Positions 14,674 to 17,947 of a DNA stretch of 43,051 bases are shown here, in pieces; position 1 is the stretch's first letter; each line of letters opens with the position of its first letter. A program made the translations under genes and the position numbers. Under the pieces are notes generated by a model that was given only the letters and a program-made list of their open reading frames with translations, did no database searches and was not told where the DNA came from. Source of the DNA: Dialister micraerophilus DSM 19965 (lineage in GTDB: Bacteria > Bacillota > Negativicutes > Veillonellales > Dialisteraceae); contig NZ_GL878519.1 in assembly GCF_000194985.1 (NCBI RefSeq), positions 259,468 to 302,518 on the forward strand, read 5' to 3'.

Positions 14674-14701
14674 ATTATATCATGAATACACTCAAAACAA
14701 A
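14674..14701 (-). promoter_or_regulatory. Promoter of the miaB-mutS-mutL-rsmJ-miaA operon
   Basis: On the minus strand, TTTGTT, a 16-base spacer and TGATATAAT (TGn-extended perfect -10) lie 30-57 bases upstream of the miaB GTG, between the terminator of the preceding ABC module and the gene. Confidence 0.6.
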
Positions 14702-14702
14702 T

Positions 14703-14731
14703 AAAAATGCGATACAATGTACCGCATTTTT
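14703..14731 (-). terminator. Terminator of the DUF4418-ABC transporter module
   Basis: The 9-bp stem AAAAATGCG/CGCATTTTT extends to 13 bp with a 3-base loop and starts two bases after the stop codon of the ATPase gene. It ends in a T run on the minus strand. Confidence 0.85.
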
Positions 14732-14732
14732 A

Positions 14733-15401
14733 TCATGCTTTTGAAATGTGACCTTTTTCCATAATATAGTGTTTATCTGCATATGGTATAAAATCAGATT
14801 CATGTGTTACAACCAATACCGCTGCACCTTCATCTGCACTTTTTCGTAAAAGATTTATAGCAATTTTTACATTTTCACTGTCCAAATCGGATGTCGGTTC
14901 ATCCGCAAACAATATTTCGGGTGAACGAGCTAAAGCACGTGCAACGGACATACGATGCAATTCTCCTCCCGACAATTCGGTCGGATATGCTTTTTTCAAG
15001 TTTGAAATACCCAATTCTTCCAACAAATCATCACATTTTTGATTTATATTTTTTTCTTTTTCTGAAATATAAAATTTTATATTTTCTTCTACATTCAAAC
15101 TGTAAATTGCAGCTTCGGTTTGTGGAATTATTCCCATATGATGATGACGAAAATCACTTAATTCTTTATCAGTAAATCCGTATATATCACTTTGATCTGC
15201 AAGAACAGTTCCGGAAGTAGGTTTAAGCAATCCTGCCATTATGTTAAGCAACGTTGATTTTCCGCTTCCGCTTCTTCCTGTGATTACTACCAATTCACCT
15301 GAATTTACAGAAAAATTTATTGCAGATATAGCCTCAAAAATTCTTTTGTTTGAATTATTTAAATTATACTGTTTTGTAATCATATTTGCGGTTATTTTCA
15401 T
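14733..15401 (-). CDS. ABC transporter ATP-binding protein (LolD/MacB type)
   Basis: ATPase subunit of 222 residues. Walker A is GRSGSGKST (42-50), the signature is LSGGELHRMSVARAL, Walker B is ILFADEPTSDLD, and the switch His is in VVTHESD. The sequence class matches ATPases that work with FtsX-fold permeases, which power mechanotransmission or extrusion rather than classical import. The ATG at 15401 overlaps the stop of the permease gene. It is the last gene of the three-gene module DUF4418-permease-ATPase and is followed by a strong terminator. The substrate is unknown. Confidence 0.9.
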   Translation of the reverse strand: MKITANMITKQYNLNNSNKRIFEAISAINFSVNSGELVVITGRSGSGKSTLLNIMAGLLKPTSGTVLADQSDIYGFTDKELSDFRHHHMGIIPQTEAAIYSLNVEENIKFYISEKEKNINQKCDDLLEELGISNLKKAYPTELSGGELHRMSVARALARSPEILFADEPTSDLDSENVKIAINLLRKSADEGAAVLVVTHESDFIPYADKHYIMEKGHISKA

Positions 15402-16603
15402 CAGTTTCCACCTCTCAATATTGAAGCGGTATCAACACGGCTCAAACGAAAGGCAGAATATGCAGAAGCAAGTACTCCTACTGCAAGTACGGTAATAAAT
15501 GTCAGTATTGATAAACTACCTATCATCGCAAAGTCAGGAATCAAAAACGGCAAGTTCAATGAGGATTCTATCAAACCGCTGAAAGGTATTACAAAAATAT
15601 ATCCTGCCGCAATGCCGGAAATCGCTCCTATAATACTGATAACGGCAGATTCTTTCATAATTATTTGTGCCAAATTTCGTCTTGATATACCAAGCATACG
15701 AAGTACTGCAAATTCCTTTTTACGCGATCCTATAGGTAAAGAAAATGCAATTATCAATATGATAAATACCATAAACCAAACCGCATAAGTCAAAAATTTG
15801 ATACTTTTTGAAACTGCAGATAAACTTCCTGCAATTCCAGAAAGCATACTTTTTGCCGGAATTGCTTTTACTTTGCGTACTCGCAAATTTATATCGTTTG
15901 AAACTTTAGTTATATCATAACCTTTTTTAACCTTTATATATATGGATGAAATAACATCTTCCGCTTTACCTTGAAAAACAGGATTAAGTCCCATCTTTAT
16001 AGACGAATCTATCAACATATTTATTGTTTCCGAATTTGTATATACCGCGGTATCGAATCCGGTGCCTGTCGCTTCAAGTTTGGCTACAATTTTACATTGT
16101 TTATTGTAAAACTGTATTGTATCTCCTACAGTTGCATTTACCGAAGAGCCCACAACAACATCTCCATATCCTAAAGGCTTTCCGTAACTTTTCTTTATCC
16201 ACGGCTGAATTATAAAATCTGTTTGAGGATCAAATCCTATTATTTGTACAGGTACGGAACAACAGGATGCACTTAGCGATGCTAAAAATGTCTGTGAAGA
16301 TATTTTATCAATACCCTCTATATGCTTTATCATGTCAAAATTCTGTTTAGGCATATAAAAATATCCCGGTGTACCGTTCAAAAGCATAAATTGAGGATCA
16401 ATTTTTCTTTTTGCCGAATTAGGTATAACAACGATATCTGCACCCAACCGATCTTCAAGTCTTTCAATTCCGTTTTGAAGGCTCATTATAACGATCGAAC
16501 CTGTAAACACACAAAAAGCCAAAAGAAAAGTCAAAAAAATCATGGCTGCCGTTTTTAACGGTGCGGATTTTAAATTCTTTATAGGAAGATTAGTGTAACT
16601 CAT
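15401..16603 (-). CDS. ABC transporter permease, FtsX/MacB family
   Basis: A 400-residue permease with one N-terminal membrane helix (about 16-40), a large extracytoplasmic MacB_PCD-like domain (about 45-275, containing RLGADIVVIP, a common start of this domain) and three C-terminal helices (about 280-390) of the FtsX fold. The periplasmic part contains a Cys pair (SASCCSVPV). Pairing with the adjacent LolD-type ATPase is clear from the overlapping stop/start. The start overlaps the DUF4418 stop (ATGA). The exported or extracted substrate is unknown; see the finding on the DUF4418 partner. Confidence 0.88.
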   Translation of the reverse strand: MSYTNLPIKNLKSAPLKTAAMIFLTFLLAFCVFTGSIVIMSLQNGIERLEDRLGADIVVIPNSAKRKIDPQFMLLNGTPGYFYMPKQNFDMIKHIEGIDKISSQTFLASLSASCCSVPVQIIGFDPQTDFIIQPWIKKSYGKPLGYGDVVVGSSVNATVGDTIQFYNKQCKIVAKLEATGTGFDTAVYTNSETINMLIDSSIKMGLNPVFQGKAEDVISSIYIKVKKGYDITKVSNDINLRVRKVKAIPAKSMLSGIAGSLSAVSKSIKFLTYAVWFMVFIILIIAFSLPIGSRKKEFAVLRMLGISRRNLAQIIMKESAVISIIGAISGIAAGYIFVIPFSGLIESSLNLPFLIPDFAMIGSLSILTFITVLAVGVLASAYSAFRLSRVDTASILRGGN

Positions 16604-17013
16604 TTACAATTTTCTTTCTTTAAACATTTTCTACGCATAAAAAAATCGACAATTGCAACTACTGCAATAATTCCGGCTACTACCATTACAAACGGTTTCA
16701 TAACCATATGACAACGCATTGTTGTCTTCATACAAAGAGGTACAATATTCCCCGATACCAGCATTGTAAAAATGGAATTTAAAAAAATTGCAATTGAAAT
16801 GCCTTGTTTCATTTCAATTTTTTTAGAAATAAAATGTATTATAGATAATATCAACAGTAATACTCCTAATCCGAATACTACTTCACCTGCCCAATGACAC
16901 GTCATAAAACGTCCGTTAGGCATCGCAGGGCAAACAGATGCAAAAGTTTTTACTCCTATTGCAAGAATCAAACTTGCAATTGCCATAATAAGACTGAATA
17001 TATATTTAATCAT
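16600..17013 (-). CDS. DUF4418-family membrane protein
   Basis: Small polytopic protein of 137 residues with four predicted membrane helices (about 4-24, 43-62, 72-90, 106-126). Both predicted outer loops carry the same residue pattern. Loop 1 has C28, M37, C39, H40 (ending M-T-C-H) and loop 2 has C94, M99, C101, H102 (ending M-R-C-H) plus further Met. This resembles a metal, heme or thiol site but no function is established for the family. It begins with a good AAGGAG ribosome site and is translationally coupled to the FtsX-type permease, so the three proteins probably act together. Confidence 0.75.
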   Translation of the reverse strand: MIKYIFSLIMAIASLILAIGVKTFASVCPAMPNGRFMTCHWAGEVVFGLGVLLLILSIIHFISKKIEMKQGISIAIFLNSIFTMLVSGNIVPLCMKTTMRCHMVMKPFVMVVAGIIAVVAIVDFFMRRKCLKKENCK

Positions 17014-17096
17014 AAAGACTCCTTAAATTAATAATATAAAATAATAATACTCCATATAAAAATATAAACAGGTTCTTTATAAAAGTCAAATAAAAA

Positions 17097-17120
17097 CAAG
17101 GCATGTAATCTTATGCCTTG
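17097..17120 (-). terminator. Terminator after the P-loop/Gls24 gene
   Basis: The 8-bp stem CAAGGCAT/ATGCCTTG with an 8-base loop is followed on the minus strand by TTTTTATTT. The stop codon of the upstream gene (17111-17113) lies in the loop and stem, so termination follows translation end closely. Confidence 0.8.
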
Positions 17121-17947
17121 CTTACATTTGTTATTATATTCAACTTAACCGTTTCAAGGGACATTCCTGTTGTATACTCAATTTCTTTCTGAATATTATC
17201 CCTCATTTTATGAACAATTTTTTTCATTTCGTCAGGATTTTTTTTATGCATTTCAATTTCAAGTCGCAAAACAAGTCCATTGATTTGTTCTCTGCTCTTT
17301 TTACTGTCAACTTTGTTTATTACCAAGTACGGAATGTCTTGTACGGAATATTTTACAAGTTTTTCTATTACTCTATCCGAAAAACTTAATTTCCCGTAAT
17401 AGCTGAATACAGGACGTACAACGGATCTTTCTTCATTTTTTACACGCGGTGAATTACTCTTGTTTCTGTTTCTGAAAAATCTTAACGGATAAACCAAGTA
17501 TCCTCTGAAATAAGGTTTCAATTCTACCGTAGGAACCGGAATTACGTGTTTCCCTTCTTTATATCTTGCTTCATTCGCTTTTTTTATTTCTTCAGGTCTT
17601 GCTACATCTTCTATATGTATGTATTTAAACGGTTTTTGTAAATTTAATTGTTCCGTTATTTTGATAATCATACGTTCGGATGTTCCCAAAATCAAAATAC
17701 GTGCAGGATTAATTTTAGCCAAAGATTTTTTTACATCTTCAACTTGATTTTCATCTAAAAATATCGCACGCCGTACAGCTTTCAATCTGCTTTCTTCTTT
17801 TTTCGCCGATTTACCTGCAACAATACGATTGTCATATATCAGTATTCCGTCATCAATAATACATTCCGCTTTGTTTTTATGTGCAACTGCAATCGCCCGA
17901 TCACTTTTACCTGTTCCCGGAGGACCGACAAAAGCTATAACATCCAT
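17111..17947 (-). CDS. P-loop NTPase with C-terminal Asp23/Gls24-like domain
   Basis: A 278-residue protein whose function I do not know. It starts MDVIAFVGPPGTGKSD, a canonical Walker A (residues 8-15), and the next 130 residues look like a kinase-like P-loop fold with LILGTSER near 115. A basic, poorly conserved linker (about 150-185) leads to a C-terminal segment (about 188-275) that resembles Asp23/Gls24 proteins: FSDRVIEKLVKYSVQDIP at the start and IEYTTGMSLETVKLNI at the end. Gls24 proteins are linked to envelope stress. It lies 23 bases after murB on the same strand, which supports a cell-envelope role, but this is inference. Confidence 0.65.
   Translation of the reverse strand: MDVIAFVGPPGTGKSDRAIAVAHKNKAECIIDDGILIYDNRIVAGKSAKKEESRLKAVRRAIFLDENQVEDVKKSLAKINPARILILGTSERMIIKITEQLNLQKPFKYIHIEDVARPEEIKKANEARYKEGKHVIPVPTVELKPYFRGYLVYPLRFFRNRNKSNSPRVKNEERSVVRPVFSYYGKLSFSDRVIEKLVKYSVQDIPYLVINKVDSKKSREQINGLVLRLEIEMHKKNPDEMKKIVHKMRDNIQKEIEYTTGMSLETVKLNIITNVSKA

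Follow-up and report, generated by a model that had tools for sequence, protein, structure and literature searches.

A small membrane protein of the DUF4418 family (PF14387) is encoded next to a MacB/FtsX-type ABC transporter in a nearly obligate pairing, and the trio of small protein, permease and ATPase is probably a metal-handling device. By analogy with FetA-FetBCD, we tentatively favor, at somewhat under even chances, an ATP-driven relay on the outer side of the membrane for a soft metal, Fe(II) or Cu(I), with a Cys subunit unrelated to FetA. The trio was identified in the window, the whole stretch of DNA analyzed here (43,051 nucleotides of Dialister micraerophilus DSM 19965), from a genome of 1.28 Mb that is 99.6% complete.

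Organization of the locus

The trio occupies positions 17013 to 14733 of the window, where ORF translation gives three successive and overlapping genes, all on the minus strand, in the order DUF4418, permease and ATPase. The features of the locus are as follows.

17094..17123, minus strand: terminator-like hairpin where the gene upstream of DUF4418 ends
17061..17089, minus strand: sigma-70-like promoter TTGACT-17-TATATT, 48 nt 5' of the DUF4418 start (consensus match only)
16600..17013, minus strand: DUF4418 protein gene, 137 aa, four transmembrane helices (ORF, Pfam, alignment, AlphaFold2 model)
15401..16603, minus strand: MacB/FtsX-type ABC permease gene, 400 aa; outer-face Y83-M84 and C114-C115 mark DUF4418 partners
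14733..15401, minus strand: LolD/FtsE-like ABC ATPase gene, 222 aa (ORF, Pfam, NCBIfam)
14700..14734, minus strand: terminator-like hairpin of 16 pairs, directly 3' of the ATPase gene

The ORF coordinates bear out the overlaps described in the first-pass annotation: the DUF4418 and permease genes share 4 nt (ATGA), and the permease stop and the ATPase start share 1 nt. The upstream hairpin sets the trio apart from the preceding gene, and the three genes look like one transcription unit because they are framed by this hairpin, by promoter-like and AAGGAG ribosome sites 5' of the DUF4418 gene and by the hairpin after the ATPase gene. Terminator-like sites are in excess in the region (5, vs 1.6 in shuffled sequences), and promoter-like sites are not (15 vs 13.3). 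In an expression table for Bifidobacterium longum (PMC7701253), a DUF4418 gene and an ABC permease gene whose locus tag directly follows are both listed as lowered about twofold, which fits a single transcription unit in a further lineage. That expression-table entry was the only place where our full-text literature search found DUF4418 named, and PF14387 was not named in the texts searched. By Pfam, none of the three genes codes for a MacA adaptor, the component expected in an operon for MacAB-TolC tripartite efflux. No relative was found among IMG/VR viral contigs.

Conserved residues and topology of the DUF4418 protein

The small protein matches PF14387 over residues 11-125 (102.3 bits, cut-off 27). 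No NCBIfam family was found for it, and Pfam gives no match to PF10080/FtrD, the FetA homolog of this genome being a separate gene. Its AlphaFold2 model (mean pLDDT 92.6, pTM 0.85, input alignment of 19 rows) consists of four helices, at residues 2-22, 38-62, 66-86 and 100-132, and therefore places both connecting loops on one side. In 92 of the 96 homologs (3 more being ties), the three inside segments are richer in Lys plus Arg than the two loops, and the loop side is therefore predicted to be extracytoplasmic. A profile of the family gave no match up to E 1 against the sequences of solved structures. Fold searches with the model (Foldseek/VIA) brought up nothing beyond generic four-helix bundles, with a best Foldseek E of 0.034, and these matches were set aside.

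In the window protein, the outer-face loops read C28-x8-M37-x-C39-H40 and C94-x4-M99-x-C101-H102. The first-pass annotation had placed these eight residues, along with four hydrophobic segments and both loops on the same side, from the letters alone; the translation confirms every position, and the modeled helices and the Lys/Arg counts agree with the topology. Its two M-x-C-H motifs, offered as candidates for invariance, fared less well. In an alignment of 96 ORFs with 95 distinct sequences, taken from the window and from loci L031-L126, the five most conserved of all positions in the window's protein are C94 (96/96), C101 (95), C39 (95), C28 (94) and M37 (93), and all five are retained together in 91 homologs. 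The remaining residues are less conserved (H40 in 80/96, M99 in 65/96 and H102 in 45/96), and both full motifs are present in 29 of the 96. The four cysteines and M37 thus stand, while H40, H102 and M99 do not. As judged from the alignment, the conserved core of DUF4418 is C28...M37-x-C39 together with C94...C101, and not the two M-x-C-H motifs.

The partner permease carries its own Cys/Met site

Domains and fold identify the ABC part of the trio as a MacB/FtsX-type (type VII) transporter. The permease matches PF02687 (FtsX, 53.5 bits) and PF12704 (MacB_PCD, 38.5 bits) and the ATPase matches PF00005 (ABC_tran, 116.7 bits), all above the Pfam cut-offs. The permease model resembles LolE (9xro_E; Z 23.9, rmsd 9.8, 342 aligned) and HrtB (7w78_B; Z 21.2, rmsd 8.4, 338 aligned) equally well and likewise shares the MacB fold. 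The trio thus has in common with LolCDE, MacB and HrtBA the permease fold with its FtsX and MacB_PCD domains and a LolD/FtsE-like ATPase. However, it scores below the NCBIfam equivalog cut-offs for LolC/E and LolD (24.5 of 362 and 160.7 of 308 bits), and it differs from these transporters by the extra DUF4418 subunit, by a CC/CH pair and a Met on the outer face, and by having no MacA. Members of this class are thought to move an outer-face domain by ATP, a process termed mechanotransmission (PMC5985334).

Newly found by sequence comparison, the partner permease has an outer-face C114-C/H115 pair and M84 of its own. Among 74 partner permeases, 72 have Cys114, 57 have Cys and 16 have His at position 115, 72 have Tyr83 and 66 have Met84; Y83-M84 and C114-C115 both lie in the outer-face domain. 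As a control, 70 FtsX matches were collected in 12 genomes (10 with DUF4418 and 2 without) and 30 loci were fetched. The only CC among the control rows reaching the site was that of L155, itself a DUF4418 partner, and none of the remaining 24 rows, which represent 22 distinct proteins and include FetB/C-type permeases, has the C114-C/H115 pair. In the permease model (mean pLDDT 82.8), residues 112-115 are the sole stretch of at least three residues under pLDDT 50, as would be expected of a conserved loop that is shaped by a partner. CC is replaced by CH in 16 permeases and by HC in one (L051), and such Cys-to-His swaps point to a metal ligand rather than to a necessary disulfide. L051 deviates in both subunits (M37T and H40F in DUF4418, M84I and C114H in the permease). 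All 16 permeases with H115 pair with a DUF4418 that has Gly99; as they form one clade, this is one event on the tree and carries little weight as co-variation.

The DUF4418-permease pairing is nearly obligate

A full-length permease lies directly downstream of DUF4418 on the same strand in 69 of the 96 cases, with the ATPase following in 65, and five further DUF4418 genes have the permease upstream or divergent. Of the 27 genes without a downstream permease, 5 are close to the end of their contig (1.2 kb or less). We also surveyed 380 genomes of the class of the window's organism (Negativicutes), accepting partner-type permeases at E up to 1e-45. After two weak matches were left out (G366 and G371; 20 bits, internal stops), which took the DUF4418 genomes from 51 to the 49 above the cut-off, DUF4418 and the partner permease were each found in 49 genomes, 48 of them common to both, against an expected overlap of about 6 (Fisher 1e-58, descent not controlled). 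The two mismatches are G249, where DUF4418 is present and the permease is in pieces in the fetched locus L049, and G079, where the permease is cut at a contig start. The two genes are on separate contigs in G311 and G314 and 44 kb apart in G315. In 17 genomes from outside the class list, most of them with DUF4418 unpaired, a strong partner permease is present in 12 and a contig-end fragment in 1; no partner permease was found in the other 4, namely the nearly complete G412 and three represented by MAG contigs. The pairing is nearly obligate, and the recurrent linkage to a LolD/FtsX pair, which the first-pass annotation had named as a check, holds in 48 of 49 genomes and 69 of 96 loci.

Some DUF4418 genes without a permease lie shortly behind a HisKA/HAMP sensor kinase or regulator (L074, L083, L093 at 3569, and L097, where the kinase domains were confirmed), as if the protein were an accessory sensor part. 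The window's own genome has another ATPase and FtsX-type permease pair (L158, 2135-4436; contig C1, about 927-929 kb); the protein encoded just before this pair looks exported, has a C-x2-C motif and matches no Pfam family.

Genomic contexts of the module

Fet components, sought within 6.5 kb with the Fet proteins of the window's genome as queries, adjoin 18 of the 96 DUF4418 genes, on the same strand in every case. The families PF03239, PF10634, PF10080, PF04205 and a Fe_dep_repress-type regulator were checked in these loci, three of which stand behind a DtxR-type regulator. The order is P19, FetA-type, FetB, FetC and ATPase followed by DUF4418-permease-ATPase in L116 and L120, and DUF4418-permease-ATPase followed by FTR1, P19 and FetA-type in L091 and L104. 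On the permease tree, 14 of the 18 fall in the window's half, L116 and L120 in the other half, and L073 and L106 are unplaced. Of the 49 DUF4418 genomes, 36 have the FetA-type domain (PF10080) and 13 lack it, while 67 of the 380 genomes have it overall (descent not controlled); counted by genus, it occurs in 18/23 with DUF4418 vs 28/102 (descent again not controlled). In the window's family, it is present in 3/3 genomes with DUF4418 and 1/9 others. The window's genome has a cluster at about 550-557 kb of contig C1 that encodes FTR1, P19, a FetA-type protein, two FtsX permeases (FetB and FetC), an ATPase and an FMN_bind protein, and the window trio stands alone some 270 kb from it.

Two further arrangements were seen. 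In L073, L089, L090, L095 and L096, genes for an ATPase, an FMN_bind lipoprotein, two unidentified membrane proteins, a fumarate-reductase-like FAD protein and an SdhB-like Fe-S protein lead to DUF4418, a run that resembles an electron line linked with iron uptake. A DUF4491 membrane protein is encoded between fet-type genes and the DUF4418 module in L040 (4879-5166), and in L044 the module is followed by a DUF4491-like ORF.

Twenty of the 96 DUF4418 genes are found near nitrogenase-component-1-like, NifB-like (Nitro_FeMo-Co) or NifH-like genes, and 10 more are near an SsuA/NMT1-type binding protein, CysK or a Cys/Met PLP enzyme without nitrogenase-like genes (nitrogenase-component-1-like, 16/96; SsuA/NMT1-type, 14; CysK, 6; Cys/Met PLP enzyme, 5). 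These neighbors go with the other half of the permease tree and do not occur in the 37-row clade to which the window belongs. None of the 20 nitrogenase-like loci has fet markers in the same neighbor count, so iron uptake is not the sole context. The Nif-like protein scores under every NCBIfam cut-off shown; from its sulfur neighbors, our guess is a methylthio-alkane reductase. Three of the 96 loci (L052, L053 and L057) are nos loci, with the order permease-ATPase-DUF4418-...-Rieske-cytochrome b-cytochrome c-NosZ (in L057, NosZ matches TIGR04246 at 927 bits). These nos clusters hold an additional ABC machine, directly upstream of the Rieske/cytochrome/nosZ genes. Thirty-eight of the 74 paired loci are without any marker used for the tree labels.

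In 22 of the 96 loci, DUF4418 is preceded by a gene for a 55-90-residue protein with one helix, a G-x-N-R-x-P motif and an outer tail that bears His and often Met (HEMH, GHSMHMDNG and HHPHTH, for example; loci include L066, L068, L110, L116, L121 and L123). Wherever it could be placed, it falls in the half of the permease tree without the window. The count leaves out a spurious small ORF (L086, 23 to 22); two more spurious ORFs, in L046 and L122, came up in a looser scan only, and the tails of L038 and of the cut L114 are without His. This protein is possibly an unannotated metal-binding subunit.

Proposed mechanism and alternatives

The outer-face relay is proposed because the plan of the trio is like that of the Fet system (fetMP-fetABCDEF in Campylobacter, SifABCDE in Bifidobacterium), in which a Cys-conserved multi-helix protein likewise accompanies FtsX-type permeases and an ATPase. 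The two systems differ in several respects. FetA has PF10080 and eight helices, whereas DUF4418 has four helices and neither PF10080/FtrD nor CXXC; Fet has two different FtsX permeases, whereas the window and most loci have one; and the FetB/FetC-type permeases examined are without the CC site of the DUF4418 partner. As to the FTR1 and P19 with which Fet is encoded, DUF4418 adjoins fet components in 18/96 cases, and the window copy does not, although its genome has the cluster. In C. jejuni, fetA-D are each needed for growth under iron limitation (PMC10783030), and sif mutants of B. breve show sensitivity to chelation of ferrous iron (PMC5449479); two papers call the substrate of the Fet/Sif ABC transporter unknown or unclear (PMC6083913, PMC10783030).

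Starting from the observed gene structure, topology, conservation, nearly obligate pairing and neighborhoods, we infer that the two Cys/Met sites meet and bind metal, and we read the identity of the metal and its direction of movement, whether loading, release or clearance, in the same conditional way. The proteins would form one complex, presumably a permease dimer with two ATPases as a mechanotransmitting MacB/FtsX-type motor and DUF4418 as a dedicated small subunit. C28, M37, C39, C94 and C101 of DUF4418 and M84 and C114/C(H)115 of the permease would form or exchange a soft-metal site at the outer membrane face. ATP hydrolysis would move the extracytoplasmic domain of the permease, so that metal is taken from one site and handed on, either to the other site or to an acceptor. 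For the lineage of the window, the FTR1/P19 (Fet/Sif) iron-uptake system, encoded elsewhere in the genome, would be the likely client. It is conceivable, if rather doubtful, that this Cys/Met(His) site split between DUF4418 and permease makes a portable cassette that, depending on the bacterium, serves iron uptake (Fet), nitrogenase-like sulfur metabolism or nitrous-oxide respiration. The metal or redox site put forward in the first-pass annotation survives in its same-face loops, conserved Cys/Met and ABC linkage, now joined by the complementary CC/CH and Met site of the permease, and loses the invariant M-x-C-H.

The main rival of the metal relay, which we regard as unlikely, is a thiol-disulfide or electron relay in which the DUF4418 Cys pairs and the permease CC pass reducing power, across the outer face or along it, to FMN-binding or thioredoxin-like proteins. 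The two Cys pairs in two same-face loops form a layout that we take to resemble that of DsbB/VKOR. The vicinal CC of 57/74 permeases and neighbors that include an FMN-binding lipoprotein (10/96), fumarate-reductase-like and Rieske/cytochrome genes also speak for such a relay. DsbB and VKOR thiol oxidoreductases, however, have a CXXC active-site pair, whereas CXXC is absent among the conserved DUF4418 cysteines (C28-x10-C39 and C94-x6-C101 in the window). Neither VKOR nor DsbB gave a significant fold match to the DUF4418 model, the match to VKOR 4nv6 being generic at E 1.5. In addition, the system is kept in the 17 of 74 permeases where CC has become CH or HC, and the conserved M37 and M84 would be superfluous for a disulfide relay. 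A redox relay has been proposed by others for FetA-FetBCD-FetEF (PMC10783030).

A machine for copper delivery or clearance that loads NosZ, P19 or other copper proteins outside the cytoplasm, and is specific to this metal, would account for a ligand set that is all soft (Cys/Met), for the three loci directly inside nos clusters, for P19-containing clusters nearby and for the His/Met-tail protein. NosL-NosDFY, in which an ABC motor and a membrane-bound Cu(I)-binding partner deliver copper and sulfur to the outer-face NosZ, is similar in logic to the trio, three modules of which lie inside nos clusters, although the NosDFY permease presumably belongs to another family than the DUF4418 partner. 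We nevertheless consider copper specificity improbable. The recurrent neighbor clusters, as judged by their representatives, included neither a copper regulator nor a copper ATPase, nos genes occur in only 3/96 neighborhoods, and the nitrogenase-like context to our knowledge needs no copper.

There is a slight chance that the trio is an HrtBA-like extractor of heme from the outer leaflet, with Met, His and Cys of DUF4418 as axial ligands: these residues serve as heme ligands, the permease model resembles HrtB (7w78_B) among others, cytochromes occur in the nos loci and DUF4418 follows a HisKA-type sensor kinase in L074, L083, L093 and L097, but LolE and others match as well as HrtB, the DUF4418 His residues are not conserved, no heme gene was found to recur beside the module and the association with fet gives no reason to invoke heme. 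Equally remote is the export or extraction of organic sulfur or thiols (methanethiol, cysteine) with DUF4418 as the thiol-binding subunit, as the nitrogenase-component-1-like, SsuA/NMT1-type, CysK and Cys/Met PLP neighbors in the second half of the tree would suggest, since such neighbors are absent from the window's 37-row clade and we know of no through-channel for small polar solutes in MacB-type permeases. The "copper or heme" and "extruder" of the first-pass annotation are not borne out by the informative neighbors, which are Fet/Sif genes for the half of the tree with the window and nitrogenase-like/sulfur genes for the other half.

For a Pfam family previously without one, the metal relay provides a hypothesis of function that points to particular residues of two proteins. 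As a smaller pair of Cys protein and MacB-type ABC transporter that often lies in Fet/Sif clusters, the module may offer a simpler system in which to address the role of the ABC transporter in metal uptake.
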